The notes under the pieces are model-generated. The model had not been told where the DNA came from, made no database searches, and was given only the letters and a program-made list of their open reading frames with translations. The position numbers and the translations under genes were made by a program. This document shows positions 45,652 through 62,212 of a stretch of 64,000 nt of DNA, piece by piece (the stretch's first letter is position 1; every line of letters begins with the position of its first letter). The stretch covers positions 1,054,001 to 1,118,000 of the forward strand of contig NZ_CP083663.1 in NCBI RefSeq assembly GCF_020097815.1, read 5' to 3'. The stretch comes from Haloprofundus salinisoli (GTDB lineage Archaea > Halobacteriota > Halobacteria > Halobacteriales > Haloferacaceae).

Positions 45652-47313
45652 CTACTCGCGGAGTTCGACGCGGCGGATCTTTCCGCTGGAGGTTTTCGGC
45701 AGTTCGTCGAGAAACTCGATCTCCCGGGGGTAGGCGTGTTTGGCGAGTCGCTCGCGGACGAACTCGCGGATGTCGGTCGCCACCTCGTCGTCGCGGGCGG
45801 TTCCCGCCGTGGTGACGACGTACGCCTTCACGAGTTCGCCGCGCTTCTCGTCGGGGACGCTGACGACGGCCGCCTCCGCGACCGCCTCGTGTTCGAGCAG
45901 CGTGCTCTCCACCTCGAAGGGGCCGATTCGGTAGCCCGACGAGAGGATGACGTCGTCGGCGCGGCCGACGAACCAGAGGTAGTCGTCGCCGTCTCGCTCG
46001 GCGGCGTCGCCTGTCAGAAACAGCTCTCTGTCCGCGTGTTCGACCCACGCTTCGGCGGTCTTCTTCGGTTCGTTCCAGTAGCCGCGGAAGTAGGTCGCCT
46101 CGCCGCGGGCGACGGCGAGTTCGCCGACTTCGCCGGCGTCGGTCTCCGCACCGGTCTCGGGGTCGACGACGCGGACGTCGACCCCCGGCAGCGGTCGTCC
46201 CATGCTCCCCGGCTTGACGTCCATCTCACAGGCGTGGTGGTTGCCCGCGACCATCCCGCACTCGGTGACGCCGTAGTGGTCGTACACCGTCACGCCGAGT
46301 TCCTCGCCGAACCAGCGCATCACCTCCGGATTCAGCGGTTCGCCCGCGCTGTTGCCTTTCCGCAGCGAGAGGTCGTACGATTCGTGGACGTCGCCGGCGG
46401 CGACCAGACCCCGATACGCCGTCGGACTCGTGGCAAGGCTCGTCACGTCGTAGCGCTCCATCACCGCGTACCACGCCTCGGGGTCGAACTCGCCCTCGTA
46501 GAGCACGTTCGGCACGCCAATGCTCACGGGGGCGATACCCGCCGTCAACAACCCGTACATCCAACCGGGGTCGGCCGCGCCCCAGACCGTCTCGTCGTCG
46601 CCGAGGTCCATCGAGCACTGGAGGTAGGGATACAGCGCCGCCAACACGCGGTGGGTCAGTTCGCAGCCCTTCGGCGGGCCGGTCGTCCCGCTCGTGTACT
46701 CCAGCGTGCAGAGGTCGTCCGCCGACGTTTCGGCCGTCTCGTACGTCGACGGCTGGTCGGCGACGAGCGTCTCGTACTCGATATCCTCGCCGACGACGCT
46801 CCCGCCGCCATCGCCGTCGGCTCCATTGCTCTCGCGGTCGATGACGACGACGTTCTCGATGCCGACCTCGTCCTCGACGGCGGCTATCTTCTCTCGATAC
46901 TCGGTCGTCGTGAACACCGTCTTCACGCCCGCGTCGGCCGCGCGGACCGAGATGGCGTTCGGACCGAACGCGGTGAAGAGCGGGACGTACACCGCGCCGC
47001 GCCGCCAGATTCCCAGAAACGTCGGATAGAGTTCGGGGAGGCGGGGAACGAGCGTCGCCACCGGGTCGCCGCGGTCGACGCCGAGCGAGTCGAGCGCGTT
47101 CGCCACCTGCGCGCTTCGCTCGTCGAGGTCGGCGTAACTCAGCGTCTCGCGGTCGCCCTCGGCGGCCCCCTCCCAGTAGACGGCCGGTCCGGAGCCGACG
47201 TGCCGACAGACCGTCTCGTGGGCCACGTTGAACCGGTCGGGGCCGTCCCAGTCGAAGCTCTCCCAGACGTCGTCCCACGAGAAGGAGTCGCGGAGTTCTT
47301 CGTAGGTGGTCAT
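45652..47313 (-). CDS. AMP-forming acyl-CoA synthetase 1
   Basis: 553 residues from ATG 47313 (MTTYEELRDSFSWDDVWESF); the frame is open far upstream, but that part is the shadow of the enoyl-CoA hydratase gene. The P-loop is YTSGTTGPPKGCE, the hinge motif is GRADDVILSSGYRIGPFEVES, and the catalytic lysine is in KTSSGKIRRVEL. The N-terminal extension and overall layout resemble acetyl/medium-chain acyl-CoA synthetases. It makes the acyl-CoA from a free acid, ATP and CoA. Confidence 0.92.
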   Translation of the reverse strand: MTTYEELRDSFSWDDVWESFDWDGPDRFNVAHETVCRHVGSGPAVYWEGAAEGDRETLSYADLDERSAQVANALDSLGVDRGDPVATLVPRLPELYPTFLGIWRRGAVYVPLFTAFGPNAISVRAADAGVKTVFTTTEYREKIAAVEDEVGIENVVVIDRESNGADGDGGGSVVGEDIEYETLVADQPSTYETAETSADDLCTLEYTSGTTGPPKGCELTHRVLAALYPYLQCSMDLGDDETVWGAADPGWMYGLLTAGIAPVSIGVPNVLYEGEFDPEAWYAVMERYDVTSLATSPTAYRGLVAAGDVHESYDLSLRKGNSAGEPLNPEVMRWFGEELGVTVYDHYGVTECGMVAGNHHACEMDVKPGSMGRPLPGVDVRVVDPETGAETDAGEVGELAVARGEATYFRGYWNEPKKTAEAWVEHADRELFLTGDAAERDGDDYLWFVGRADDVILSSGYRIGPFEVESTLLEHEAVAEAAVVSVPDEKRGELVKAYVVTTAGTARDDEVATDIREFVRERLAKHAYPREIEFLDELPKTSSGKIRRVELRE

Positions 47314-47426: not shown

Positions 47427-48191
47427 CTACTCGGCGAACTCCGGGTCTCGGTCTTCGAGGAACGACAGCGCCCCCTCGCGGGCGTCGGGCCCCGAAAAGA
47501 GGTAGCCCAACCCGTTTCGCATCGCCTCGTCTTCGCCCGCAAAGCGCAACGACGCGTTGAGCCACGTCTTCGTCGTCTCCAGCGACGCGGGCGACGAGCG
47601 CTTGAGCGCCGAAACGATCTCCGAGACGGCGTCGTCCAGTTCGCTCTCGCCGACGGCTCTGGCGAACAGGCCCCACTCGACGGCCTCCTCGGCACCGAGT
47701 TCCCGCCCGGTCAGCGCGAGATCGGCCGCCCGCTGGCGACCCACGAGGCGGGCGAGTCGCTTCGCGCCGTAGAAGGGGTACGCGCCGATTCGGGTCTCCG
47801 GCAGCGCGAAGACGGCCTCGCGCGGGACGACCGTGAGGTCCGCAGAGATCAGGAGTTCGAACCCGCCGCCGTAAGCGGGACCGTTCGCTTTTGCGACGAC
47901 CGGCACGGGCGAGCGCTCGATCGCGCCGAAGCAACCGAGCACCGTGTCGGCGAGTTCGCGGGCGTCCCGCGGGTTCTCGATGTCGACGAGCGATCCGATG
48001 TCGTCGCCGGCGCAGAACGCTCGGCCGGCGCCGGTGAGGACGATAGCCCGAGCGCCATCGTCGTCGGCGCGCCGCACCCCGTCGGCGACGCCGTCCCACA
48101 TCGGAAGCGTCATCGCGTTCAACTTCTCGGGCCGGTCGAGCCGAATCGTGCTCACGCCGTCGGCGAACTCGTAGCTGACGTGTTCCGTCAT
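47427..48191 (-). CDS. Enoyl-CoA hydratase/isomerase family protein
   Basis: 254 residues of the crotonase fold. LDRPEKLNAMTLPM, GAGRAFCAGDDIGSL (CoA oxyanion loop) and ANGPAYGGGFELLISADLTV are typical. At the usual first catalytic glutamate the protein has GAYPFYGAKR, and I do not see the standard hydratase pair clearly, so isomerase or hydrolase activity is possible. It lies upstream of acyl-CoA synthetase 1 on the same strand. Confidence 0.88.
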   Translation of the reverse strand: MTEHVSYEFADGVSTIRLDRPEKLNAMTLPMWDGVADGVRRADDDGARAIVLTGAGRAFCAGDDIGSLVDIENPRDARELADTVLGCFGAIERSPVPVVAKANGPAYGGGFELLISADLTVVPREAVFALPETRIGAYPFYGAKRLARLVGRQRAADLALTGRELGAEEAVEWGLFARAVGESELDDAVSEIVSALKRSSPASLETTKTWLNASLRFAGEDEAMRNGLGYLFSGPDAREGALSFLEDRDPEFAE

Positions 48192-48296: not shown

Positions 48297-49283
48297 TTAC
48301 CGATTCGCGGGAGCCAACGTCTCTATCGTCCGGAGCGTCAGGTCGTCGTCAGCCTGTCGCGGGACGGTGAGCATCGGTCGGTCGAGCACGTCGAGGTCGA
48401 GAACCGTCTCCAGTTGCGCCGCCGCCGCCTCGGGCGTTCCGGCGACCCCGAGCGCGCGGACCATCTCGTGGGAGACGGCGTCGCTCGCGGCCGCGCGGTC
48501 GCCGCTTCGCCACGCGTTCGCTATCTGGTCGGCCTCGTCGGGGAAGGCGGTGGCGACCGCGCGGCGGTAGCCCTCCCCGCTGCCGACGTAGTACGCGAGG
48601 TGGCCGCGGACGGCGTCGTACGCCTCCGTTTCGTCATCGGAGACCGCCGCCGGAACGTAGGGGGCGACGGCGATTGATTCCGGACTGCGTCCGGCCTCGC
48701 GCGCCGCGTCGGCGACGACCTCGAAGGCGTCGGAGAGCCCCTCGAACGGGATGTTGTGCGGAATCCAGCCGTCGCAGACCCGGCCGGTCGCTCTCCTGTT
48801 CGCGGGGCCGAGCGCCGCGTTGAACACCGGCACGTCGACGTCGAGGCCGGGGAAGTCCGCCACCTCGAACATCTCGCCCTCGTAGTCGACGGCGTCGGCG
48901 TCGCTCAGATACGCTTTCACGAGTTCGACCGTCTCGTGGATGCGGCGGACGGGATTCTCGTACTCGAAGCCGTGGAGGTCTTCGATGGCCTTCGGCGTGC
49001 TCGCGCCGACGCCGAGCGTCAGGCGGCCGGGAGCGAGTCGGTCGACCGACGCCGCGGCCATGGCGATGACGGCCGGCGAGCGCGAGAACACGTTGACGAT
49101 GGCGGTGCCGAGGCCGATAGTCTCGGTGCGCATCGCGAGTTCGGCGAGTTGGACAAACACGTCGGTCCCCCAGAGTTCGCTCACCCAGACGGCGTCGTAA
49201 CCGAGCTCCTCCGCGCGCTCGGCGACCGACGCCGGCGACTCCGCGGAGATGTCGGGGAGCAGCAGTCCGAGCGAGGTCGGCAT
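48297..49283 (-). CDS. Luciferase-like (LLM) F420-dependent oxidoreductase
   Basis: 328 residues of the bacterial luciferase TIM-barrel fold. ERAEELGYDAVWVSE, IGLGTAIVNVFSRSPAVIAM, SVDRLAPGRLTLGVGAS and ATGRVCDGWIPH match F420-dependent members of this superfamily common in haloarchaea. It probably oxidises an alcohol or reduces an enoyl or carbonyl group. It starts 3 bases after the acyl-CoA dehydrogenase stop, so the two are co-translated. Confidence 0.87.
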   Translation of the reverse strand: MPTSLGLLLPDISAESPASVAERAEELGYDAVWVSELWGTDVFVQLAELAMRTETIGLGTAIVNVFSRSPAVIAMAAASVDRLAPGRLTLGVGASTPKAIEDLHGFEYENPVRRIHETVELVKAYLSDADAVDYEGEMFEVADFPGLDVDVPVFNAALGPANRRATGRVCDGWIPHNIPFEGLSDAFEVVADAAREAGRSPESIAVAPYVPAAVSDDETEAYDAVRGHLAYYVGSGEGYRRAVATAFPDEADQIANAWRSGDRAAASDAVSHEMVRALGVAGTPEAAAAQLETVLDLDVLDRPMLTVPRQADDDLTLRTIETLAPANR

Positions 49284-49286
49284 CCA

Positions 49287-50501
49287 CTACTCCCCGTACC
49301 TCGCGACGTTCTCCAGTTCGGACTCGTCGACATCGGAGAAGGCGTCGCGGGCGATGACGCGCTTGTGGACCTCGTCCGCGCCGTCGACGAAGCGGAACTG
49401 CCGGACGTTCTGGTAGAAATCCGCGAGCGGGAGGTCTTCGCCGACGGCGTTCGCGCCGCAGCACTGCATCGCCGTGTCGATGGCCTCCTGGACGACGTTC
49501 GAGGTGTAGAGCTTGCTCATCGACACCTCGATTCTGGCTTCGTCGTCGGCGGTGATGCGGTCGGCGGCGTGTCGGACCATGCAGCGCGCCGCGTGGAGTT
49601 CGGTTTCGGCTTCCGCGACGGCGAACCGGATGCTCTGTTTCTCGGCGACGGGCGACCCGAATGCCTCCCGCTCGCTGGTGTACGCCTTCGCCACGTCGAG
49701 CGCCCGCTGGGCCATCCCCGAGTAGCGCATGCAGTGAGTGAGTCGCGCGGGTCCGAGACGTCGCTGGGCGATGGTGAACCCCTCGTTCTCCTCGCCCATC
49801 AGGTTCTCGACGGGGACGCGGACGTCGTCGAACTTGATCTCGGCGTGGCTCGTCCCGAGCAGGCCGTCGGCCATGTGCGGGATGCCGCGCTCGATCTCGA
49901 CGCCGGGCGTGTCGGCCGGCACGAGGATGATAGAACAGCCGCTGTAGGGGTGGGCGTCGAAGTCCGTCCGGGCCATCACGAGCAGAACGTCGGCCTCCAG
50001 GCCGTTCGTCGTCCACCATTTGTGGCCGTTTATCACCCACTCGTCGCCCTCCTTTCTCGCCTCGGTCTTGAGCATCTTCGGATCCGACCCGCCGCCCTGC
50101 ATCGGTTCGGTCATGCAGAAGCCGGAGCGAACCTCGCCGGCGACGAGCGGGCGGAGCCACTCCTCTTTCTGCTCCTCGGTGGCGACGAGCTCGAAGGTGT
50201 GCATGTTCCCCTCGTCGGGGGCGTCGACGCGGATGGCGGGCGCGGCCAACAGACTCCGCCCGGCCTCCTCGAACGCCGGGAGCACGTCGCGGAACTGCAT
50301 CCCCATCCCGCCGTACTCGGTCGAAATCTGTGGCGCGTAGATGTCGCGTTCGCGGGCTTTCTCCCTCAGTTCGGCCAGTTGGTCCTCACCTATCGGTCCG
50401 TCGCCCAGCAGGTCGCGCTCGACAGGAATCACCGTCTCGTCCACGAACTCGCGGACGCGGGCCGCGACCGCCTCCGCGCGTTCGGAATCGTCGTACTCCA
50501 T
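49287..50501 (-). CDS. Acyl-CoA dehydrogenase of ACAD10/ACAD11 type
   Basis: 404 residues. Beyond general ACAD motifs (FCMTEP near residue 128, INGHKWWTTNG near 157), two segments are closest to animal ACAD10/ACAD11: APDEGNM (94-100) and RRLGPARLTHCMR (247-259). ACAD10/11 act on 4-hydroxyacyl-CoA after phosphorylation by a fused APH kinase domain. The window also holds a stand-alone APH kinase and a HAD protein, matching the other ACAD10 domains. FAD-dependent, cytoplasmic. Assignment of the ACAD10/11 branch is from memory of the sequences. Confidence 0.9.
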   Translation of the reverse strand: MEYDDSERAEAVAARVREFVDETVIPVERDLLGDGPIGEDQLAELREKARERDIYAPQISTEYGGMGMQFRDVLPAFEEAGRSLLAAPAIRVDAPDEGNMHTFELVATEEQKEEWLRPLVAGEVRSGFCMTEPMQGGGSDPKMLKTEARKEGDEWVINGHKWWTTNGLEADVLLVMARTDFDAHPYSGCSIILVPADTPGVEIERGIPHMADGLLGTSHAEIKFDDVRVPVENLMGEENEGFTIAQRRLGPARLTHCMRYSGMAQRALDVAKAYTSEREAFGSPVAEKQSIRFAVAEAETELHAARCMVRHAADRITADDEARIEVSMSKLYTSNVVQEAIDTAMQCCGANAVGEDLPLADFYQNVRQFRFVDGADEVHKRVIARDAFSDVDESELENVARYGE

Positions 50502-50639
50502 AATCGTTCATCCGCGTTCTGTGCTAAAAGTTCTCTTACTGCGGTGATTTGTCCCCGGAGAGCGCAGGAGACGCGCGCTCGGTCGTTGACGGGCGGTCCG
50601 TCGGTGCCGAGCGGTTCGCCAGGCTCGAACGGTTCGCCG

Positions 50640-51413
50640 CTATCGGGCGGTCCAGCCGCCGTCGACGGCGAGACACGCGCCGGTCACGTAACTGGCGGCG
50701 TCGCTGGCGAGGAAGACGACCGGCCCCGCGAGCTCCTCGGGGTCGGCGAAGCGGTCCAGCGGCGTCCGGTCGACGATGGACTGTCTCAGTTTCTCGTTCT
50801 CGCGCACCTCCGCGGTGAGGTCGGTGGCGACGTAGCCCGGCGCGACGACGTTGGCGCGCACGTCGGGGGCCCAGTCGAGCGCGATACTCTTCGTGACGCC
50901 GACGAGGCCGTGTTTCGAGGCGACGTAGGGATGTTGCCGCGGCAGGCCGACGACGCCGCCGACGCTGGCGACGTTGACGAGCGAGCCACCGTCGCTCTCG
51001 GCGAGGTGTTCGGCCGCCTCCTGCGCGCAGCGGAACGCTCCGCGGAGATTGACGTCGAGGACGAAGTCGTAGCCGTCGGGGTCGACGTTTTCCGGTCGGC
51101 CGAGCGCCGCGGCCGGGTTGACGCCTGCGTTGTTGACGACGACGTCGACGCCGCCGAAGGCGTCGGCCGTCTGCTCGAACAACGCTCGGATGTCGTCGTC
51201 GTCGGTCACGTCCGTCGGGACGACGAGGCTCTCAACGCCGTGGGATTCGACGGTTTCGGCCGCCGCTTCGACGTCCGATTCGGTTCGGGAGGTCGGAACG
51301 ACCGTCGCGCCGGCGGAGGCGAGTCCTTCGGCGATGGCGAGACCGATACCTCTCGTCCCGCCGGTGACGACGGCGACGCGACCGGTGAGGTCGAACTGGT
51401 CGAGCGCGTTCAT
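50640..51413 (-). CDS. Short-chain dehydrogenase/reductase (FabG-like)
   Basis: 257 residues. VVTGGTRGIGLAIAEGLA is the NAD(P)-binding loop, VNNAGVN follows, and HPYVASKHGLVG supplies the YxxxK catalytic pair. Likely a 3-hydroxyacyl-CoA or related alcohol dehydrogenase in the acyl-CoA island. Its start overlaps the stop of acyl-CoA synthetase 2 by 4 bases (ATGA), indicating coupled translation. Confidence 0.93.
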   Translation of the reverse strand: MNALDQFDLTGRVAVVTGGTRGIGLAIAEGLASAGATVVPTSRTESDVEAAAETVESHGVESLVVPTDVTDDDDIRALFEQTADAFGGVDVVVNNAGVNPAAALGRPENVDPDGYDFVLDVNLRGAFRCAQEAAEHLAESDGGSLVNVASVGGVVGLPRQHPYVASKHGLVGVTKSIALDWAPDVRANVVAPGYVATDLTAEVRENEKLRQSIVDRTPLDRFADPEELAGPVVFLASDAASYVTGACLAVDGGWTAR

Positions 51414-52960
51414 CGGCCGGCCTCCTCGGAATCCGACTCGCGGTCCCAGTGGTTCACGCGCTCCTCCTTCTCGCGCGTCCGGAGCTTCTGCTTCTGTATC
51501 TTCCCGGTGGGTGTGTACGGGAACTCCTCAACGAACTCGATGTATCGGGGTAGTTTGAACGACGCGAGCTGTTCGCGGCACGTCTCGACGACCTCCTCTT
51601 CGGTTAGCTGGTGGCCCTTCTTGACGCGAACGAGCGCCTTGACGACTTCCGTGTAGAACTCGTCGGGACTCGGGATGACCGCCACCTCGTCGACGGCGTC
51701 GAGCGCCTTGATGACGCCTTCGACCTCGTACGAGGAGATGTTCTCGCCGGCCCGCCGGACGATGTCCTTCTTGCGGTCGAGGAAGTAGACGAAGCCGTCC
51801 TCGTCGAGTTTGCCGTAGTCGCCCGTGTAGAACCAGCCGTCGTGGACGGCTTCGTCGGTCTTGTCGGGTTGGCGGTGGTAGCCCGCCATCAGCGCCGGGC
51901 AGCTCTGGATTATCTCGCCTTTCTCGCCGGTCGGAACGGAGTCGCCGTCGTCGTCGACGACCTTGATTCGCTTTTCGGCGGGTGGGAGGCCGATACTGCC
52001 GATGCGGCGCTTCTCGGGGTCTGTCGGGTTGAGCATCAGAAGCGGGTCCTCGGTGAGCGAGTAGCCCTCGACGACGCGGAGACCGAAGCGCTCCTCGAAC
52101 GGTTCGATGAGCTCCGGCGGCGTCCCGGCCGAGAAGACGAGTTCGACCGGGTTCTCGCTGTCATCCGGTGACTCGGCGACGTTGTCGAGCATCTTCAGCA
52201 TGCTCCCCATCGCGTTGAACTCCGTCACGCCGTGTTCGCGGCACCAGTCCCACCAGCGCGAAGAGGAGAACCGCTCGTAGATGACGACTTCCGCGCCCGC
52301 CGCCGCCGCACCGAGCGTCGAGTAAATCTGGGCGTTCGCGTGGAACAGCGGCAGCGCGGTGAACAGGGTGTCTTCGTGGGTGAAGCCCATCCGCTTCTGG
52401 AAGTCGACTGCACTCAGCGTCCAGTTCTCGTGCTGGCACTCGACGGCCTTCGGCGGCCCCGTCGTCCCCGAGGTGTACATGTGGAGGCCGACCGAGCTCT
52501 CGTCGCCGTCGTGGGGGTCGATCTCGGTCGACTGGTCGGCCGCCAGCGCCGGCAGCGACTCGTAATCGCCGACGGCCTCCGTCGTCAGGATTCGCTCGAC
52601 GGTCGTCCCCTCGACGGCTTTCTCCGCCACGTCGAGGAGGTCCGGCGTCGTGACGAGCAGCTCGGGCCGCGAGAGGTCCAGCGAGTGCCGCAGTTCGTCG
52701 GGTTTGTACTCGGGGTTCGACGGCGCGGTGACGCTGTCGAGATAGCCGTCGGCGAACATGAGAAACAGGAACTCGGGGCAGTTCGGCAGGAAGAGACCGA
52801 CGGCGTCGCCCGCCTCGACGCCCACCGACGACAACGCGTTCGCGTACCGCTTCGACTCCTCGGCCGTCCCCTCGTAGCTGTATCGGGCGTCCGGAAACGT
52901 CAGAAACGACTTCTCCGGCGTCTTCTCCACCCGGCTTTCGAGCAGTGCTTCGATGCGCAT
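51410..52960 (-). CDS. AMP-forming acyl-CoA synthetase 2
   Basis: 516 residues. P-loop YTSGTTGPPKAVE, A8 hinge LDRKKDIVRRAGENISSYEVE and catalytic lysine region YTPTGKIQKQKL. The asparagine-containing NISSYEVE hinge and short N-terminus resemble carnitine/crotonobetaine or medium-chain acid CoA ligases. First gene of the operon with the SDR downstream of it. Divergent from the iron alcohol dehydrogenase. Confidence 0.92.
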   Translation of the reverse strand: MRIEALLESRVEKTPEKSFLTFPDARYSYEGTAEESKRYANALSSVGVEAGDAVGLFLPNCPEFLFLMFADGYLDSVTAPSNPEYKPDELRHSLDLSRPELLVTTPDLLDVAEKAVEGTTVERILTTEAVGDYESLPALAADQSTEIDPHDGDESSVGLHMYTSGTTGPPKAVECQHENWTLSAVDFQKRMGFTHEDTLFTALPLFHANAQIYSTLGAAAAGAEVVIYERFSSSRWWDWCREHGVTEFNAMGSMLKMLDNVAESPDDSENPVELVFSAGTPPELIEPFEERFGLRVVEGYSLTEDPLLMLNPTDPEKRRIGSIGLPPAEKRIKVVDDDGDSVPTGEKGEIIQSCPALMAGYHRQPDKTDEAVHDGWFYTGDYGKLDEDGFVYFLDRKKDIVRRAGENISSYEVEGVIKALDAVDEVAVIPSPDEFYTEVVKALVRVKKGHQLTEEEVVETCREQLASFKLPRYIEFVEEFPYTPTGKIQKQKLRTREKEERVNHWDRESDSEEAGR

Positions 52961-53044
52961 TCGTAGCCGAGGGTACGTCCATCCACCACATGTAGATTGT
53001 TATTCGTGAACATTTATCTCAGAGCGCAGGCACGTCGCTCGTCA

Positions 53045-53054
53045 ACATTTATCA
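53045..53054 (+). promoter_or_regulatory. TATA element of the iron alcohol dehydrogenase
   Basis: ACATTTATCA lies 23-32 bases before the ATG at 53077. A near-identical AACATTTATC sits about 35 bases farther upstream (53009-53018), so there may be two promoters or a repeated regulatory element. Confidence 0.45.
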
Positions 53055-53076
53055 CAGTACGGCGTTCGGAAGTCGT

Positions 53077-54258
53077 ATGGTGCGCGAACACCGGTACGAG
53101 GCTGCTCGATTCGTCTGGGGCGAGGACGCCATCGGTCGCCTGGACGGTCTACTGTCGGAGGCGGGCGTCGAACGAGCGATGGTGGTCTGCGGCGAACACG
53201 TCGGCGCGAACGAGGAACTGATGGGCGCAGTCGGCGACGCCCTCGGCGAGCGTCACGTCCACACCTACGCCGGATCGCGGGGCGACACGCCGCTCAGGAC
53301 GGTGGAGACGGGCGTCGAGGCGTTCTTCGAACACGACGCCGACAGCCTCGTGAGCGTCGGCGGCGGGAGCGCAAGCGACACCGCGAAGGCGATCTCCGTC
53401 TTCGCTGCCGAGAGCGGTCGAGACCTCCACGAGATGAAGACGCAGACGACGGCGGACGGAGAGTCCTACGTTCCCGACCTCCCCGCGCCGAAGACGCCCG
53501 TCTTTTCGGTGTCGACGACGCTGTCGGCCGCCGAGGTGTCGAACATATTCGGCGTCACCGACGAAGAAGCGGGGGAGAAGGCGGTGATTCTCGACAAGAA
53601 GATTCGGCCGCGGGCCTGCATCTACGACTCGGCGGCGACGGCGACGACGCCGCCGGCGACGATAGCCAGCACGGGGATGAACGCCCTCGACCACGCGGTG
53701 GAGATTCTCTACTCCGACGGCCACGCCGAGAACCCGTTCTACCAGGCGACCGCCGAGAAAGCCATCGACCTGCTCGTGACGAACCTCCCGGCGGCTGTCA
53801 ACGACGGCGACCCCGAGGCGCTCGTGGACGCGCAGCTCGGCGCGGGCCTCAGCGGCCTCGGCATCGTCGGCGGCATCAGCATCAACCACGGCATCAACCA
53901 CCCGCTCTGCGCGCGCCACCCCGTCTCTCACGGCGACGGGAACAGCATCCTCCTACCGCACGGCATCCGCTTCACCTACGACGCGGTGCCCGAGCGGATG
54001 GCCCGACTCGCCAGCGCGCTGAGCGTCGAGGTGGAGGGCGACTCGGCGACCGACGAGGCGACGCTGGAGGCGATGTGCGATGTGATTCGAGAGCTACAGG
54101 AGGAAATCGGCGTGCCCTACCGTCTGCGCGACGTGGGCGTCGACCGCGACGACTTCGAGGCGATGGCGAAGATCGCGGCGCACGACTCGGCGATAGCCAA
54201 CAACCCGAAGCGGGTCACCGAGTCGGATATCGTCGCCATCCTCGAAGCGGCGTGGTGA
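53077..54258 (+). CDS. Iron-containing alcohol dehydrogenase family protein
   Basis: 393 residues. VSVGGGSASDTAKAI is the NAD(P)-binding glycine motif. The metal ligands are expected in ASTGMNALDHAVE and in the HPLCARHPVSHGDGNSILLPHG region, which is rich in histidine. Relatives include maleylacetate reductases, lactaldehyde reductases and 4-hydroxybutyrate dehydrogenases; the last would fit a 4-hydroxy-acid route but cannot be decided by sequence reading. Convergent with acyl-CoA synthetase 3. Confidence 0.9.
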   Translation: MVREHRYEAARFVWGEDAIGRLDGLLSEAGVERAMVVCGEHVGANEELMGAVGDALGERHVHTYAGSRGDTPLRTVETGVEAFFEHDADSLVSVGGGSASDTAKAISVFAAESGRDLHEMKTQTTADGESYVPDLPAPKTPVFSVSTTLSAAEVSNIFGVTDEEAGEKAVILDKKIRPRACIYDSAATATTPPATIASTGMNALDHAVEILYSDGHAENPFYQATAEKAIDLLVTNLPAAVNDGDPEALVDAQLGAGLSGLGIVGGISINHGINHPLCARHPVSHGDGNSILLPHGIRFTYDAVPERMARLASALSVEVEGDSATDEATLEAMCDVIRELQEEIGVPYRLRDVGVDRDDFEAMAKIAAHDSAIANNPKRVTESDIVAILEAAW

Positions 54259-54282
54259 GGCGGCAGTAGTGCTCGAAAGCCG

Positions 54283-55857
54283 TCAGATGCGGCGCTCCTC
54301 GCCTTCCCAGTACTGTTCGCGGAGTTCCGTCTTGAGCACTTTCCCGTAGGAACTGCGCGGGAGTTCGTCGACGACTTCGACGGTCTTCGGTTTCTTGTAC
54401 GCCGCCAGTGCCCCAACACAGCGCGCTTCGATCTCCGCGGCAAGCGTGTCGGCGTCGATATCGACCCCTGGCCGCGGTTCGACGACCGCGGTCACCTTCT
54501 CGCCCCAGTAGTCGTCGGGGACGCCGATGACCGCGGCGTTCGAGACGGCCTCGTGGCCGATGACGACCTCCTCGACTTCCCGGGGGAAGACGTTCATCCC
54601 GCCGGAGATTATCATGTCCTTCTTGCGGTCCATGATGTAGAGGTAACCCGCCTCGTCCACGCGGCCGATATCGCCGGTGTGGAGCCACCGGTCTGAGAAC
54701 GTCGCCTCCGTCTCCTCGGGGAGGTTCAGGTAACCCGGCGTGACGTGCGGCCCCGTCACCACCACCTCGCCGGGGTCGCCGGACGGGATGTCTCCGCCCT
54801 CGTCGTCGACGATGCGGACGTGGGCGACGTCGACCTCGCGCCCGGCCGAGGCGAGTCGGTCCCCGTCGCCGTCGAGCGCCCGACGGTGGTCCTCGTGGTC
54901 GAGCAGCGTAATCAGCATCGGACACTCCATCTGCCCGTACGACTGGACGAACACGTCGCCGAGGCGGTCGATCCCCTCGGCGAGTCGCGCGGCGCTCATC
55001 GGCGACCCCGCGTAGTAGACGTTCTTCAGCGAACTCGTGTCGCGGCCGCCGTCGTAGTTGTCGAGCAGTTTGTACACCATCGTCGGCGCGAGAAACACCG
55101 TGGTGACGCCGCGAGACTCGACCGCGTCGAGGAATCGGTCGGGGGCGAAGCCGTCTTCGAGGTGGTTCGCGCCGCCCGCCAACACGGTCGACTCGACCAG
55201 AAAGCCGGAACCGTGGGTGAGCGGCGCGGCGTGCAGCGTCACCTCGTCCGCCCGCTGGTCGAGCGCGTCCCTCAGCGCGAGCGCCGTCGAGAGCCACGTC
55301 CCGTGGGTGTGCTGGACGCCTTTCGGCCGACCCGTCGTCCCCGAGGTGTACATCACCGCGCAGGGGTCGTCGAGCGAGACGTCGGCGGGGCGGTCGGTCG
55401 GGTCGGCGTCCAGAAGGGAGTCGTAGGAGTGCGCGCTCTCGCCCCACGCCCCGGAGAGCCTCCCGTCTTCGCTCCCGACGACCACCGTCGCGCGCACCGC
55501 CGACTCCATCTCCGCGCGGTGGTCGGCGAACGACGCCTCCGTGACCAGCACCTTCGCGTCCGCGTCGTCGACGAGCATACCTTGTTCGCGGGGCGTGAGC
55601 ATCGAGTTCAGGGGGACTTTGCTCGCACCGAGTCGGTAGAGCGCGAACGACGTCTCGACGAACGCCGCGTGGTTGCGCGTGAGTACGGCGACCCGGTCGC
55701 CGCGTTCGACGCCGAGTTCGGTCAGCCCGCCGGCCAGTCGGCGAACTCGGTCGGCGAGCTCCCGGTACGTTCGCTCTCCGTCCGCGCCTCGGCCCGACAG
55801 CGCGACGGCGTCGGGATGGTGTCGCGCCGCCCGCTCCAGCGCGTGTTCGAGATTCAT
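54283..55857 (-). CDS. AMP-forming acyl-CoA synthetase 3
   Basis: 524 residues from ATG 55857 (MNLEHALERAARHHPD); a start 15 bases earlier is also open. P-loop MYTSGTTGRPKGVQ, hinge MDRKKDMIISGGMNVFPREVEE, catalytic lysine in RSSYGKVLKTEL. The hinge with GGMNVFPREVE is typical of long-chain or aryl acid CoA ligases. It is divergent from the MaoC-fold protein 1. Confidence 0.92.
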   Translation of the reverse strand: MNLEHALERAARHHPDAVALSGRGADGERTYRELADRVRRLAGGLTELGVERGDRVAVLTRNHAAFVETSFALYRLGASKVPLNSMLTPREQGMLVDDADAKVLVTEASFADHRAEMESAVRATVVVGSEDGRLSGAWGESAHSYDSLLDADPTDRPADVSLDDPCAVMYTSGTTGRPKGVQHTHGTWLSTALALRDALDQRADEVTLHAAPLTHGSGFLVESTVLAGGANHLEDGFAPDRFLDAVESRGVTTVFLAPTMVYKLLDNYDGGRDTSSLKNVYYAGSPMSAARLAEGIDRLGDVFVQSYGQMECPMLITLLDHEDHRRALDGDGDRLASAGREVDVAHVRIVDDEGGDIPSGDPGEVVVTGPHVTPGYLNLPEETEATFSDRWLHTGDIGRVDEAGYLYIMDRKKDMIISGGMNVFPREVEEVVIGHEAVSNAAVIGVPDDYWGEKVTAVVEPRPGVDIDADTLAAEIEARCVGALAAYKKPKTVEVVDELPRSSYGKVLKTELREQYWEGEERRI

Positions 55858-55938
55858 GATACTCGGTAGCACCTAACGAGAAGATAAACGTTCGCCTCGA
55901 GCGAGCAGTTATGGTGGGTGTTCGCGTACCGCAGACCG

Positions 55939-56394
55939 ATGTCAGGGCCAGTTCGGTACTACGACGACCTCTCGGTCGGCGACACGTTCGAGACCCGCGG
56001 GCGCACCATCACGGAGACGCATCTCGTCACCCACGCCGGGAACACCGGCGACATGAACGAACTCCAGATGAACGCCGCCTACGCCGCCGACACCGAGTTC
56101 GGCGAGCGGCCGGTCCACGCGCCGCTGACGTACTCGGTGATGGAGGGGCTCATCACGAGCGACTTCAGAAACGAGGCGTCGAACGTCTGCTACTACGGCC
56201 TCGACTCGATGCGGATCCCCGCGCCGACGTTCGTCGGCGACACGATTACGGTCAACAGAGAAGTCGTCGACAAGCGCGATAAGTCGCCGGGCGGCATCGT
56301 GACGTTCCGCGACGAGGTGACGACCGACGACGGCCGGACGGTGCTCGTCTGCGAGACGCTGGAGTACATTCGGACGCGCCCGGAAGTGGAGTAG
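55939..56394 (+). CDS. MaoC-fold protein 1 (catalytic His replaced by Gln)
   Basis: 151 residues from ATG 55939; a GTG at 55918 is also open. LSVGDTFETRGRTITETHLVTHAG is the hot-dog start, and FGERPVHAPLTYSVMEGL the usual middle. The MaoC dyad Asp-x4-His is here Asp38 with Gln43 (GDMNELQ), whereas MaoC-fold protein 2 has Asp38 and His43. It may bind acyl-CoA without hydrating it, or use another residue. An IR and an unusual intergenic stretch follow. Confidence 0.85.
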   Translation: MSGPVRYYDDLSVGDTFETRGRTITETHLVTHAGNTGDMNELQMNAAYAADTEFGERPVHAPLTYSVMEGLITSDFRNEASNVCYYGLDSMRIPAPTFVGDTITVNREVVDKRDKSPGGIVTFRDEVTTDDGRTVLVCETLEYIRTRPEVE

Positions 56395-56717
56395 ACGGCT
56401 CTGTCAAAGTCTCGAGTCGTGACAGAGCTCGCGTGCTGAGTAGAGGGCGCACATACCTCCAAGAAGGAGGTGTTTATCGACGTGCATTATCCTGATGAAC
56501 TGATGGCTGTCGCGACGACGGAGTGATGCTCAGTGAGTCCACGGGAACAGCACATACACTAATCCCTCGCACTGATTGGACCGCGAGTCATGACTAACCT
56601 GCTGAGAAATACATCCTCTCTACCCAGCAGAACCCCGTCAAACTATCACTGATTGAGGGTGTCACCAGGGCCGAGCAAACCAACCGCCAAAACCGGCCGT
56701 CCGTTCAGCCTGCCGGG
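56395..56717. other. Gene-free stretch with inverted repeats, possible IS or MITE remnant
   Basis: 323 bases with no supported gene and visibly lower GC than the flanks. GCTCTGTCA (56398-56406) and TGACAGAGC (56420-56428) form a perfect 9-bp inverted repeat over 13 bases. ACCTCC-AAGAA-GGAGGT (56455-56471) is a second hairpin. The outward-reading ends GGCTCTGTCAAAG resemble insertion-sequence termini, but no transposase is readable. Confidence 0.5.
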
Positions 56718-57185
56718 TCAGCCGTCGGCGGCCGAGCGCCGCCGGAAGAAACTCGTGATTCGCAGCGTCAACACGGTTTCATCCGCTTGATTCGAGACGG
56801 TCTGTTCGACGGTGACGAGACCGCGGTCGGGTTTCGACGCCGACGCCCGTTTGCCGACGATCTCGACGCGGACCGAGAGCGTGTCGCCGGCGCGGACCGG
56901 CGCGAGGAAGTTCGCCTCCTCGATGCCGGTGCCGCCCATCACCGACGTCTGTGCGTAGAAGTCGTCGGTGACGAGGCGGTTCGCCAGCGCCATCGTGTGC
57001 AACCCGCTGGCGACGAGTTCGTCGAACACCGACTCCTCGACGGCCTCGGCGTCGACGTGGAACGGCTGGGGGTCGTAGCGGTCGGCGAAGCCGATTATCT
57101 CCGCTCGGGTCACCGTTCGTCCACTCGTCTCGAACGCGTCGCCGACGGCCAACTCCTCGAAGTGCAGCGTCTCCATCGCCTTCAT
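56718..57185 (-). CDS. MaoC-fold dehydratase 2 (intact catalytic dyad)
   Basis: 155 residues. LAVGDAFETSGRTVTRAEIIGFA and DRYDPQPFHVDAEAVEES carry the catalytic Asp38 and His43 of R-specific enoyl-CoA hydratases. VRAGDTLSVRVEIVGKRASASKPDRG is the typical C-terminal half. It probably hydrates an enoyl-CoA. It lies 4 bases after the APH-kinase stop and is the third gene of the HAD-APH-MaoC operon. Confidence 0.92.
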   Translation of the reverse strand: MKAMETLHFEELAVGDAFETSGRTVTRAEIIGFADRYDPQPFHVDAEAVEESVFDELVASGLHTMALANRLVTDDFYAQTSVMGGTGIEEANFLAPVRAGDTLSVRVEIVGKRASASKPDRGLVTVEQTVSNQADETVLTLRITSFFRRRSAADG

Positions 57186-57189
57186 CGAC

Positions 57190-58257
57190 TCACCACGCCC
57201 GCGTCCCCTCGATTACTTCCCGGGCGTACGCGACGAGTTTCGGCGTCCCCTCGTCCATGGCGGCGTACAGCGGGTCGTCGCTGTCGCCGGCTAGGTGTCG
57301 CGCGTAGAACATCTCGCAGACCGCCGCCAGTTTGTACGTCGCCAGCGCCAGATAGAACGTCGAGTGCTCGACGGCGACACCCGAGCGCTCCTCGTAGCGC
57401 GCGGCGAGTTCGCGGCGGGTCGGATACCCCTCGCGCGCCGTGAACGACGGCATCAGTTCGGGAATCGGCGGCTCGTCATCGGGGTCGTCGTGCCAAAACA
57501 GGAGCATCCATCCCAGATCCGACAGCGGCGCGCCGAGCGTCGAGAGCTCCCAGTCGACGACGGCGTTGACCCGCGGCGGCGTCCCCGGGGCGAGGATGAC
57601 GTTGTCGAGCTTGTAATCCCCGTGGACGAGCGTGTGCTCGGGAGCGTCGGGGACGTTGTCGGCGAGCCATGACTCCACCTCGTCGCGGCCCGGAAGTCCT
57701 TCCGGGCGCTCGGTCCGCCCCGCGGCCCACGCCATCTGCTTGCCCCAGCGGTCGACCTGCCGGTCGAGGTAGCCCTCCGGGCGGCCGAACCCCCCGAGAC
57801 CCACGGAGTCGACGTCGAGGGCGTGAATCGCCGCCAGCGAGTCGACGAGTTCGCGCCCGAGTTCCGCCCGGCGGTCGGGAGTCGCAAAGCGCTCGGGTTC
57901 CTCGAGGCGGACGACGTCGCCGTCGACGCGCTCCATCAGGTAGAACTCGCCGCCGATTACCGAGTCGTCCTCGCAGTACAGCACCGTCGGCGGGACGGGG
58001 ACGTCGGTTCCCTGCAGGGCGTCCATCACCCGGAACTCCCGACCCACGTCGTGGGCGGTGTCCGCGGTGTCGCCCGGCGGCGGTCGGCGCAACACGAGAT
58101 CGCGGTCGCCCCACGCGACGAACAGCGTCTCGTTGGAGTGGCCCTCCTGGTGCCACTCAACCGAAAACGTCCCCACGTCGCCGAGTTCGGACGTGAGGTA
58201 CGTCCGGAGTCGGCGCTCGTCGACGAGTCGTTCCTCGTAGCTCCGCTCGTTGGTCAT
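57190..58257 (-). CDS. APH-family kinase of ACAD10/ACAD11 type
   Basis: 355 residues from ATG 58257. QEGHSNETLFVAWGDRDLVLRRPPPG (36-62) and PVPPTVLYCEDDSVIGGEFYLMER (87-110) match the kinase domain that precedes the dehydrogenase in ACAD10 and ACAD11. The catalytic loop VHGDYKLDN (211-219) has Asp214, and DWELSTLG (235-242) provides the metal-binding Asp235. Substrates in relatives (ACAD10/11, bacterial LvaA) are 4-hydroxyacyl-CoAs. Middle gene of an operon with the HAD protein upstream and MaoC 2 downstream. Confidence 0.92.
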   Translation of the reverse strand: MTNERSYEERLVDERRLRTYLTSELGDVGTFSVEWHQEGHSNETLFVAWGDRDLVLRRPPPGDTADTAHDVGREFRVMDALQGTDVPVPPTVLYCEDDSVIGGEFYLMERVDGDVVRLEEPERFATPDRRAELGRELVDSLAAIHALDVDSVGLGGFGRPEGYLDRQVDRWGKQMAWAAGRTERPEGLPGRDEVESWLADNVPDAPEHTLVHGDYKLDNVILAPGTPPRVNAVVDWELSTLGAPLSDLGWMLLFWHDDPDDEPPIPELMPSFTAREGYPTRRELAARYEERSGVAVEHSTFYLALATYKLAAVCEMFYARHLAGDSDDPLYAAMDEGTPKLVAYAREVIEGTRAW

Positions 58258-58325
58258 CGATAGCAGTTGACGAACCACCCTCTAAAACGCACCGCCGAAC
58301 CGGTCGACGCTCCGAACGCTTTTGC

Positions 58326-59024
58326 TCAGCGCTCGACGCCGACGACGTCGAGAACCTCGCGCAGGTCGTCGACGCGGTAGTCGACGGCGGGACCGTTGTC
58401 GGCACCGTACGCAACGGTCGACAGTCCGGCGTCGGCCGCTCCCTCCATATCGTGCTCGTAGCGGTCGCCGACCATCAGCGCCGTCTCCGGCGGGACGTCG
58501 GCGGCCGCGAGCGCCGCCTCGAACATCGCCCGGTCGGGTTTCGTCCGGCCGACCGACTCGGAGGTCGTCACCGAGTCGAACGCGTCTGTGAGGCCGAACA
58601 CGTCGAAGATGAGATACGCCTCGGCGGTGTCGATGTCGCTGACGACGCCGACGTGACGGTCCGAGTCGCCGAGTCGCTCGACCGTCTCGACGGCACCCGG
58701 ATTCGGCCGCAGTGTCTCGCGCTGGACGCGCTCGAACAGCGGTGTCCACTCGTCGGCCGGGACGGAGTCGCCGACGAGGGCGTCGACGGCGTGGCCGTAG
58801 GCCGTGCGCGAGGACCGGAACGCGGTCCCCTCCCGTTCGTGGAAGTGGCGGCCGACTTCGGTTCGCCAGGTCTCCAACGCCGCGTCGACGGGTATCGAGA
58901 GCTCGTAGGCGTCGTCGAGCGCCTCGACGAACCGTCGATGAGATTCGCGCGCGGAGTCGACGTCGAGGAGCACCCCGCCGATGTCCCAGAACACGGCCCG
59001 CCAGTCGTTCGTGTCGTCGTTCAC
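58326..59024 (-). CDS. HAD-fold protein, DxG form of motif I (ACAD10 N-domain-like)
   Basis: 232 residues. Motif I is FWDIGGVLLD: the nucleophile Asp14 is present, but the second aspartate is Gly16. Motif II is VVSDID, the lysine motif is GRTKPDRAMFEAAL, and motif IV is MVGDRYEHDMEGA. A D-x-G-G-V-L motif I also occurs in the N-terminal HAD domain of ACAD10. Either a phosphatase using another acid/base or a non-catalytic partner. It precedes the APH kinase by 68 bases on the same strand. Confidence 0.85.
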   Translation of the reverse strand: MNDDTNDWRAVFWDIGGVLLDVDSARESHRRFVEALDDAYELSIPVDAALETWRTEVGRHFHEREGTAFRSSRTAYGHAVDALVGDSVPADEWTPLFERVQRETLRPNPGAVETVERLGDSDRHVGVVSDIDTAEAYLIFDVFGLTDAFDSVTTSESVGRTKPDRAMFEAALAAADVPPETALMVGDRYEHDMEGAADAGLSTVAYGADNGPAVDYRVDDLREVLDVVGVER

Positions 59025-59181: not shown

Positions 59182-60876
59182 ATGTCATCCACGGAGCTGA
59201 CCCTTCGACCGTTCTTCTGGCGCGCGACGAAGCTCTTTCCCGAGAAGGAGGTCGTCTCGCGCGGCCCGGACGGGATGACCCACTACACCTACCGCGAGTT
59301 CGGCGAGCGGGCTCGAAAACTCGCCGGGGCGCTGTCGGCGCTCGGCGTCGAGCCCGGCGACCGGGTCGGGACGGTCGGCTGGAACACCCACCGCCACTAC
59401 GAGGCGTACTTCGCCATCCCGCTGATGGGCGCACAACTGCACACCATCAACGCGGTCCTCCCCGACGACCACGTGGAGTACATCGTCGAGGACGCCGGCG
59501 ACGAAGTGCTGCTCGTCGACCCCGGTGAGCCGTTCGAGACCGTCGAGCGACTCTGGGACCGCTTCGACGGCGTCCGCGAGGTCATCGTGCTGGACGACCA
59601 CGTCCCCGAGACGGAGCTCGACTGCGTCACCGCCTACGAGGCGTTCGTCGCCGACGCCGACCCGGTGGAGTGGCCCGACCTCTCGGAGGACCAGCCGGCG
59701 GGGATGTGCTACACCTCCGGAACGACCGGGAAGCCGAAGGGCGTCGAGTACACCCAGAAGATGATATACAGCCACGCGATGATGGTGGCGACGCCGTCGG
59801 CGCTCGGCGTCGACGAGAGCGACGTGGTGATGCACGTCGTCCCGATGTACCACGTCAACTCCTGGGAGCTACCGTTCTCGACGGCGATGGCGGGCGCAAA
59901 GCAGGTGTACCCGGGGCCGTCGCCGGACGCCGAGACGCTCGCGCGACTCATCGAGGAGGAGGGCGTGACGCTCACCGCCGGCGTGCCGACCGTCTGGATA
60001 AATCTGCTCGATTACCTCGACGACCACGACGTCGACATCAGCAGCCTCGAACGCATCGTCGTCGGCGGCAGCGCCGCCCCGAGCGCCGTGATGCGCCGCT
60101 TCGAGGACGACTACGACGTCACTATCGAGCACGCGTGGGGGATGACCGAGACGATGAGCATCGGCAGCGTCTCGCGGCCCAAATCCGGAATGCGCGAGTG
60201 GGACCGCGAGCAGCGCTTCGAGAAGCGGGCCAAACAGGGGCTGCTCTCGCCGGGGATGGAGATGAAACTCGTCGGCGACGACGGCGAGGAGGTGCCCTGG
60301 GACGGCGAGACCGCCGGCGAGCTGTACGTCCGCGGGCCGACCGTCGTCGACGAGTACTACAACCGTCCGGAGGCCAACGAGGGGAGTTTCGAGGACGGCT
60401 GGTTGAAGACCGGCGACATCGCCGTCGTCGACGGGGACGGCTACCTCGAACTCGTCGACCGGGCGAAAGACGTCATCAAAAGCGGCGGCGAGTGGATTTC
60501 GAGCATCGAACTGGAGAACGCGCTCCTGGAACACGACGGCGTGCTCGAAGCCGCCGTCATCGGGGTGCCGCACGAGCGCTGGCGCGAGCGACCGGTCGCC
60601 TGCGTCCAGCGGAAACCGGGGGGGTCGCTCTCGGCCGACGACGTGCTCGCGTTCCTCGGAGAGCGCTACCCGCGGTGGTGGCTCCCCGACAACGTCGTGT
60701 TCGTCGAGGAGGTCCCCAAGACCGCGACCGGGAAGTTCGACAAGAAACAGCTCCGCGACGAGTACGGCGACGCCGACCTCCCGTACGCGCCGGGCGAGGG
60801 TGAGAAGACGGGCGACGAACGGGAGGCCGAGGACGCGGCGAGCGGCGAGACACCGGCGTCCGACGGCGACCGGTGA
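59182..60876 (+). CDS. AMP-forming long-chain acyl-CoA synthetase 4
   Basis: 564 residues. P-loop [43 protein letters not shown] and [16 protein letters not shown] with the catalytic lysine. The [11 protein letters not shown] hinge and the long N-terminal domain mark the long-chain fatty acid CoA ligase branch (FadD-like). The last 30 residues are an acidic, glycine/proline-rich extension. Divergent from the HAD gene; the palindrome at its start suggests control by acyl-CoA or a similar effector. Confidence 0.93.
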
Positions 60877-60955: not shown

Positions 60956-62212
60956 GTGTCCCGCGTGTACTCGTGGGTGAAGCGCTCGAACGTCTACTAC
61001 GGGTGGTTCGTCGCGCTCGCGTGCTTTCTCGGCGCGACGGTCGTCTTCGGCGTCTCGTACTCCTTCGGCGTGTTCTTCGACCGGATGCTCGTCGAGTTCG
61101 GGCGCTCCCGCGGCGAGACGTCGCTCATATTCGGCGTCCAGACGTTCGTAATGTACGTCGGAGCGGCCGTCGTCGGCGGCTTCGTCGACCGCTACGGGAC
61201 GCGGCCGCTGCTCTTGGCGTCGATGGGCTTTCTCACCGTCGGACTGGGTGGTCTCGCGCTGAGCACGTCGTTCTGGCAGGTGCTCCTGTTCTACGGCGTC
61301 GTCACGTCGCTCGGCCTGAGCGTCGTCTATGTCGTCGCCTTTGCGACGGTGCCGCGGTGGTTCGAGCGCCGTCGGGGGTTCGCCGGCGGTATCGCCAGTT
61401 CGGGGACGGGCGTCGGTATGTTGGTCGCCACGCCCGCCGCCTCGGCGCTCATTCTCGCCGTCGGCTGGCGCTGGACGTACGGACTGTTTCTCGTCGCAGC
61501 GCTGGCGATGCTCGCCGTCGCCGCCGCGCTCGTCGCCGACAGTCCGCGCCGCCTCAACGTGAACGCCGACGTGGAGTTCGACGGCGGCGCACCCGTCGAA
61601 CGCGAGGTGATGCCGTGGCGGACCCAGTTCCGCGAGACGGTGGCCGTCGCGCGAACCCCCGCGTTTCTGCTCGTGCTGTTCGGGTGGGTGTTCATCTACG
61701 CGTCGCTGTACGTCGTCTTCGCGCACCTCGTCGTCTACACGGCCGACGCGGGACTCGGCCGCGGCGTCGGCGTCTGGGGGCTCACCCTCGTCGGCGCGGC
61801 GACTAGCGTCGCCCGCCTCGGTATCGGCGGCGTCGCCGACAGACTCGGTCGGACGCGGGTGTTCGTCGCCTGTTCGGCGACGATGGGCCTGTCGACCATC
61901 GTGCTGGCGGCGACGGAGTCGGCGGTGGCGGTGCTCGCGTTCGCGCTGGTGTACGGGGCCGCCTACGGCGGCAACGGTGCGCTGTTGTCGCCGCTCACCG
62001 CCGATCTGTTCGGTGCGGAGAACATCAACGTCGTCTTCGGTCTCGTCTCCGTCTCGTTCGCCATCTCGGGGCTCTTGGCCCCGCCGTCTGCGGGTCTCGT
62101 CTACGACGCCTTCTCGAGTTACGCGCCCGCCTTCGTCGCCTCGGGGGTTCTCGGCGTCCTCGGCGCGGCGATGGTCGGCGTCGCCGACCGGTTGACGACG
62201 GCCGCCTCCTGA
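60956..62212 (+). CDS. MFS transporter, OFA/monocarboxylate type
   Basis: 418 residues from a GTG with about 12 hydrophobic segments. VYYGWFVALACFLGATVVFGVSY and SRGETSLIFGVQTFVMYVGAA at the N-terminus, and GGVADRLGRTRVFVACSATMG between segments, resemble the oxalate/formate antiporter and monocarboxylate group of MFS. Placed 79 bases after acyl-CoA synthetase 4, so it probably imports the acid that enzyme activates. Confidence 0.88.
   Translation: MSRVYSWVKRSNVYYGWFVALACFLGATVVFGVSYSFGVFFDRMLVEFGRSRGETSLIFGVQTFVMYVGAAVVGGFVDRYGTRPLLLASMGFLTVGLGGLALSTSFWQVLLFYGVVTSLGLSVVYVVAFATVPRWFERRRGFAGGIASSGTGVGMLVATPAASALILAVGWRWTYGLFLVAALAMLAVAAALVADSPRRLNVNADVEFDGGAPVEREVMPWRTQFRETVAVARTPAFLLVLFGWVFIYASLYVVFAHLVVYTADAGLGRGVGVWGLTLVGAATSVARLGIGGVADRLGRTRVFVACSATMGLSTIVLAATESAVAVLAFALVYGAAYGGNGALLSPLTADLFGAENINVVFGLVSVSFAISGLLAPPSAGLVYDAFSSYAPAFVASGVLGVLGAAMVGVADRLTTAAS

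Follow-up and report, generated by a model that had tools for sequence, protein, structure and literature searches.

A probable haloarchaeal functional counterpart of ACAD10, ACAD11, and the Lva system

Do haloarchaea degrade 4-hydroxy acids through a 4-phosphoacyl-CoA, by the chemistry described for mammalian ACAD10 and ACAD11 and for the bacterial Lva system? The question is raised by three minus-strand genes in a 64,000-nucleotide window of Haloprofundus salinisoli (bases 1,054,001 to 1,118,000 of the 3.42-Mb genome), which code for an acyl-CoA dehydrogenase (ACAD; 49287..50501, 404 aa), a predicted 4-hydroxyacyl-CoA kinase of the APH fold (57190..58278, 362 aa; GTG start, with an internal ATG possible), and a HAD-IA hydrolase (58326..59024, 232 aa) directly upstream of the kinase gene. 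A preliminary description had read them as the split counterpart of ACAD10, and its open reading frames and quoted motifs are all in place: WDIGGVL in the HAD protein, HSNET, CEDDSVIG, and HGDYKLDN in the kinase, and APDEGNM and RRLGPARLTHCMR in the dehydrogenase. The Pfam domains are acyl-CoA dehydrogenase N, M, and C, APH (2e-46), and HAD hydrolase (1e-22), respectively; no named NCBIfam equivalog scores above its cut-off for the window kinase or ACAD, nor for LvaA or LvaC.

Both the dehydrogenase and the kinase are genuinely related to ACAD10/11 and to LvaC/LvaA, keep all of the published active-site residues, and travel together among haloarchaea with the HAD gene alongside. Because of this relatedness, these residues, and this co-travel, the 4-phosphoacyl-CoA route that had been proposed is the best reading of the locus, with substrate and activity predicted from homology. 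We put the probability that the island encodes a pathway taking 4-hydroxy acids into beta-oxidation via 4-phosphoacyl-CoA at roughly 0.8; 4-oxo acids such as levulinate are probably also handled, after reduction. Shared descent with the ACAD10 fusion, in contrast, is not supported: the ACAD falls with LvaC in its family, the kinase, although grouped with those of the ACAD10/11 type, sits in a clade of its own with other haloarchaeal kinases, and the HAD protein appears to be of a different subfamily.

The dehydrogenase

The best matches of the ACAD among solved structures are 4hr3 (250 bits) and ACAD11 (206 bits), with ordinary ACADs at 180 bits or less, and it is 38% identical to LvaC of the plasmid-borne lva operon, with which it shares APDEGN and PARLTHCMR motifs. 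In ACAD11, the 4-phosphate is bound by R626, H634, and R637, with D753 as the catalytic base, and mutants in pocket residues leave the phospho-intermediate (PMC12440821). These positions align with R248, H256, R259, and D373 of the window enzyme, and the R/H/R/D signature is present in the alignment in 114/114 sampled family members (from haloarchaea, many bacterial phyla, and one mammal) versus 0/14 other ACADs, including six paralogues from the same genome.

When rooted on ordinary ACADs, a bootstrapped tree that includes ACAD11 but leaves out ACAD10 itself recovers the ACAD10/11/LvaC family as a clade (100/100 support) with a basal split between an ACAD11 side (99/95) and an LvaC side (88/79). 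The haloarchaeal ACADs form a single clade (100/100), their grouping on the LvaC side has support of 92/84, and their sister group is from Chloroflexota (98/96). As each side of the basal split holds a characterized enzyme with the same activity (ACAD11 biochemistry is reported in PMC12440821 and PMC11342911, both of which also describe LvaC), the haloarchaeal enzyme is bracketed by known function, with the caveat that the side joining it to LvaC is only moderately supported (88/79). Of the two proteins, the kinase groups with ACAD10/11 and the dehydrogenase outside them, a placement that the preliminary description had counted as refuting its proposal; LvaC, in whose group the dehydrogenase falls, catalyzes the same chemistry.

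The kinase

The window kinase scores 188 bits against the ACAD11 kinase domain but only 64 bits (25% identity) against LvaA. A tree of 102 kinases resolves two types, 18 LvaA-type and 84 ACAD10/11-type, and LvaB (DUF6285) is encoded in the loci of 17/18 of the former and 0/84 of the latter. All 44 haloarchaeal kinases are of the ACAD10/11 type and form a single clade (100). Taken together, the two trees show that the haloarchaeal partnership joins a dehydrogenase from the LvaC side to a kinase of the ACAD10/11 type. Invariant in 84/84 ACAD10/11-type kinases, the window's included, are the catalytic Asp and Asn (D221 and N226 in the window protein), an Arg adjacent to the alphaC Glu (R80), and a linker Arg (R173); both arginines are mostly replaced in the LvaA type. 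Catalysis and, as a proposal, CoA contact are assigned to these positions (PMC12440821); the alphaC Arg was matched to R86 of that paper by description, as the alignment numbering is slightly offset from the published one.

An LvaA-with-LvaB system was considered for this locus and rejected, given the 25% identity of the kinase, its position outside the LvaA clade, and a search for LvaB (PF19802) that found none in 242 haloarchaeal genomes and gave matches in control genomes. More broadly, one dehydrogenase family occurs with two types of kinase partner (for example, L065:8029-9349, L068:2467-3878, and bacterial loci L085-L155). Some haloarchaea carry several diverged kinase copies, 42 to 51% identical to the window kinase (G143:C4:84964-86049, G119:C1:2392863-2393948, and G198:C2:736490-737548), which possibly have different substrates.

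Co-occurrence in haloarchaea

The survey covered 242 genomes of the haloarchaeal class, with cut-offs of E<=1e-80 for the dehydrogenase and E<=1e-60 for the kinase. Each is present in 123/242 genomes, and the two sets are identical; parsing of the match rows listed yielded 120 and 122 genomes, with the four discrepant ones present in both genome tables. For the dehydrogenase, at least four genera (g2, g7, g23, and g27) are mixed, and the kinase tracks it. In 54/119 genomes no more than 500 bp separate the two genes, and 52 of these pairs are divergently transcribed. The HAD gene is present in 85 genomes, all 85 within the 123 (naive hypergeometric P = 1e-35, uncorrected for relatedness). It is within 500 bp of the kinase gene in 29 genomes, upstream and co-directional in every one, and within 500 bp of the ACAD gene in 14; in 64/85 at least one of the two genes is no farther than 15 kb away.

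Other haloarchaeal loci have a MaoC gene 3' of the kinase gene and a 3-hydroxyacyl-CoA dehydrogenase fusion nearby, and on plasmid pHME132 of Haloferax mediterranei (recorded for strain ATCC 33500, presumably the same strain as DSM 1411) the HAD (E6P09_RS18915), ACAD (E6P09_RS18920), kinase (E6P09_RS18925), and 3-hydroxyacyl-CoA dehydrogenase fusion genes are consecutive. A plasmid of Haladaptatus pallidirubidus (L066:7311-17122) has the kinase gene beside acetone-carboxylase-like genes and a 2,3-butanediol/lipoamide-type cluster, ∼25 kb from a HAD-ligase-SDR-ACAD-LLM-AtoE run. Among 295 genomes of the phylum all matches come from one order, and vertical descent within the phylum is rejected; we infer that the ACAD-kinase pair is of bacterial origin.

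Several observations weigh against a 4-phosphoacyl-CoA pathway at this locus. The window ACAD and kinase genes are 6.7 kb apart and in separate transcription units, there is no LvaB, a component of the bacterial LvaA system, and the presence of many ligases in one island points to a region of mixed acid catabolism. Among the haloarchaeal kinases sampled, the window kinase also diverges the most, the other 43 grouping together (97), and a second ACAD10/11-type kinase of the same genome (L001:9004-10077, equivalent to G000:C1:2803000-2804064) branches inside the 43 and competes as partner of the ACAD.

The distance between the two genes, together with the large size of both the acyl-CoA dehydrogenase and APH-fold kinase families, would fit an ordinary acyl-CoA dehydrogenase and an unrelated small-molecule kinase that are neighbors by chance in a fatty-acid island. 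This is highly improbable, however, given the identical presence in 123/242 genomes, the adjacency in 54, the R/H/R/D signature, and the clade; the phyletic pattern already contradicts it. The divergence of the window kinase raises a different prospect, namely, that the HAD protein and ACAD act in the pathway with the paralogue as the true partner of the ACAD, the window kinase having acquired a new role. We consider this unlikely, as the window kinase keeps all catalytic and CoA-contact residues, and 5/5 genomes searched in the genus keep it in the island with the HAD and ACAD genes within 10 kb. The paralogue is not near any LvaC-type dehydrogenase gene, and there are hydantoinase-type genes a few kilobases away.

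The HAD protein

The HAD protein has the conserved nucleophile Asp, motif II Ser, motif III Lys, and motif IV acids, but the +2 position is Gly (D-x-G-G) in every haloarchaeal row covering motif I, such that the second Asp of the DxD motif is missing. The D-x-G motif is also found in unrelated HADs such as YihX and is therefore a weak sign of an ACAD10-like protein. The protein scores 95.9 bits with TIGR02253 versus 31.8 bits with the epoxide-hydrolase-like TIGR02247, which we take to be the family of the ACAD10 HAD domain, both scores being below cut-off. Its nearest relatives in sequence and predicted fold are Pyrococcus PH0459 and engineered derivatives thereof (the fold model, from a two-sequence alignment, has a mean predicted local distance difference test score of 78). 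Orthology with the HAD domain of ACAD10 is thus unsupported, and the protein fits the PH0459/TIGR02253 type best. The ACAD10 domain is also reported to lack the second Asp, to have negligible phosphatase activity, and to restrain the kinase (PMC11342911). The parallel between the haloarchaeal HAD-kinase pair and ACAD10 is one of organization; descent is not demonstrable.

No HAD gene was found near the kinase gene in the bacterial loci; the only match, a weak one in L122, lies 6 kb away, and scanning for motifs yielded no convincing candidate. In Thermus and Deinococcus a histidine phosphatase gene is beside or close to the kinase gene (L065:9346-9999 and L072:5727-6431), with a relative nearby in L087 and L135; it is possible that this is a phosphatase counterpart of the HAD protein. 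We tentatively suggest that haloarchaea may have independently recruited a PH0459-type HAD as a kinase regulator or repair phosphatase, converging on the HAD-kinase pairing of ACAD10, although we would not favor this over the alternatives taken together. If so, a phosphatase partner would be a recurring need of the 4-hydroxyacyl-CoA kinase pathway.

Comparison with mammalian and bacterial systems

The Pseudomonas lva operon (P. aeruginosa plasmid NZ_MF344569, L068) resembles the island in having separate kinase and dehydrogenase genes with SDR and ligase genes nearby, and its LvaC falls with the haloarchaeal ACAD on one side of the basal split in the family. It differs in its LvaA-type kinase and LvaB, whereas haloarchaea have a HAD partner, no LvaB, and an ACAD clade of their own. 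Mammalian ACAD11 and ACAD10 share with the haloarchaeal proteins the kinase type, with its alphaC Arg, linker Arg, and catalytic Asp and Asn, as well as the four dehydrogenase residues, and ACAD10 also pairs a HAD with the kinase, HAD first. They differ in being fusions rather than three separate genes, in an ACAD across the basal split, apparently in the HAD subfamily, and in having a non-archaeal host.

Chloroflexota have the nearest dehydrogenases (L083 and L084), and the kinase of Dictyobacter (L086) is the top-scoring bacterial one found (315 bits), but no HAD partner was found in their loci, and L083 and L084 have no kinase match within the flanks examined. A kinase/ACAD pair of Burkholderia pseudomallei replaces the ACAD10 domains (PMC11342911). 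Its likely homologue in B. cenocepacia (L070) is, like the haloarchaeal pair, split and with an ACAD10/11-type kinase, although it is bacterial and its ACAD groups with ACAD11 rather than with the haloarchaeal enzymes.

Organization of the island

The acid-catabolism island is larger than the span first described (49287-59024), extending from ∼41045 to 62212 and containing, besides the three genes, those for a thiolase, a crotonase, two MaoC proteins, four acyl-CoA ligases, an SDR, an Fe-type alcohol dehydrogenase, an LLM-class oxidoreductase, and two transporters; from the AtoE gene through the fourth ligase gene, two congeners share an identical gene order. The HAD and kinase genes are co-directional with a MaoC-type enoyl-CoA hydratase gene (56718..57185, minus strand), with spacers of ∼50 bp and 4 bp. 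A second co-directional run, ligase-SDR plus ACAD-LLM, codes for an acyl-CoA ligase (51410..52960, minus, overlapping the SDR start), an SDR (50640..51413, minus) that is 42% identical to LvaD and is a candidate 4-oxoacyl-CoA reductase, the ACAD, and, 3 bp after it, an LLM-class (F420/FMN) oxidoreductase (48297..49283, minus). The last directly follows the dehydrogenase gene in this genus and in Haladaptatus and could perform the 4-oxo/4-hydroxy redox step.

Leftward of these are genes for an enoyl-CoA hydratase/isomerase (47427..48191, minus), an acyl-CoA ligase (45652..47235, minus, start approximate), a thiolase (42713..43876, plus), and an AtoE-like short-chain fatty acid transporter (41045..42481, minus). 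Between the two runs are an Fe-type alcohol dehydrogenase (53077..54258, plus), an acyl-CoA ligase assigned from its sequence (54283..55872, minus), and a MaoC-type protein (55918..56394, plus). To the right are the ligase which of those in the window is nearest to LvaE (35%; 59182..60876, plus) and an MFS transporter that is a candidate acid importer (60956..62212, plus).

A predicted pathway and its physiology

We infer the following sequence of steps, in which the substrate, the order, and the role of the HAD protein are predictions. A transporter would import the acid, a ligase would make the CoA thioester, and the SDR or another oxidoreductase would reduce 4-oxoacyl-CoA where needed. The APH-fold kinase would then phosphorylate the 4-hydroxyl of the acyl-CoA, and the LvaC-type dehydrogenase, with FAD and its Arg/His/Arg pocket, would eliminate the phosphate to give 2-enoyl-CoA, with MaoC or enoyl-CoA hydratase, 3-hydroxyacyl-CoA dehydrogenase, and thiolase completing beta-oxidation. 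The HAD protein probably keeps 4-phosphoacyl-CoA in check, whether by restraining the kinase, the effect reported for the HAD of ACAD10, or by dephosphorylating stalled intermediates.

The same chemistry may instead serve another gamma-hydroxylated acyl-CoA (from a terpenoid, a sterol side chain, or a lactone), with levulinate or 4-hydroxyvalerate not the main substrate. The four ligases and two transporters of the island are consistent with this, as are the varied neighborhoods of the bacterial relatives, which include a terpene-utilization gene and CaiB-type transferases. Short chains are favored, however, by the AtoE-like transporter and the growth of H. mediterranei on levulinate, and we regard the alternative substrate as a serious but less probable reading. 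H. mediterranei DSM 1411 grows with levulinate as a carbon source at a mu-max of 0.097 per h (PMC12455835), and when fed gamma-butyrolactone H. mediterranei incorporates 4-hydroxybutyrate into polyhydroxyalkanoate (PMC6631277). An HpaB-family (4-hydroxybutyryl-CoA dehydratase-type) route for 4-hydroxybutyrate was rejected, there being no such gene in the window's genome. In a library limited to openly licensed papers, we found none linking an archaeal kinase/ACAD pair to levulinate or 4-hydroxybutyrate use, and archaea are unmentioned in both ACAD10/11 papers (PMC12440821, PMC11342911).

With these genes, a pathway first described for bacteria (2017) and then for mammals (2024 to 2025) would extend to archaea, where it is open to direct testing; about half of the haloarchaeal genomes sampled carry the ACAD-kinase pair. 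Two kinase types, one accompanied by LvaB and one not, serve as partners of the dehydrogenase family, and an archaeal HAD-kinase pairing joins that of ACAD10. The pathway is also a candidate explanation for growth on levulinate by Haloferax mediterranei, a bioplastic producer.
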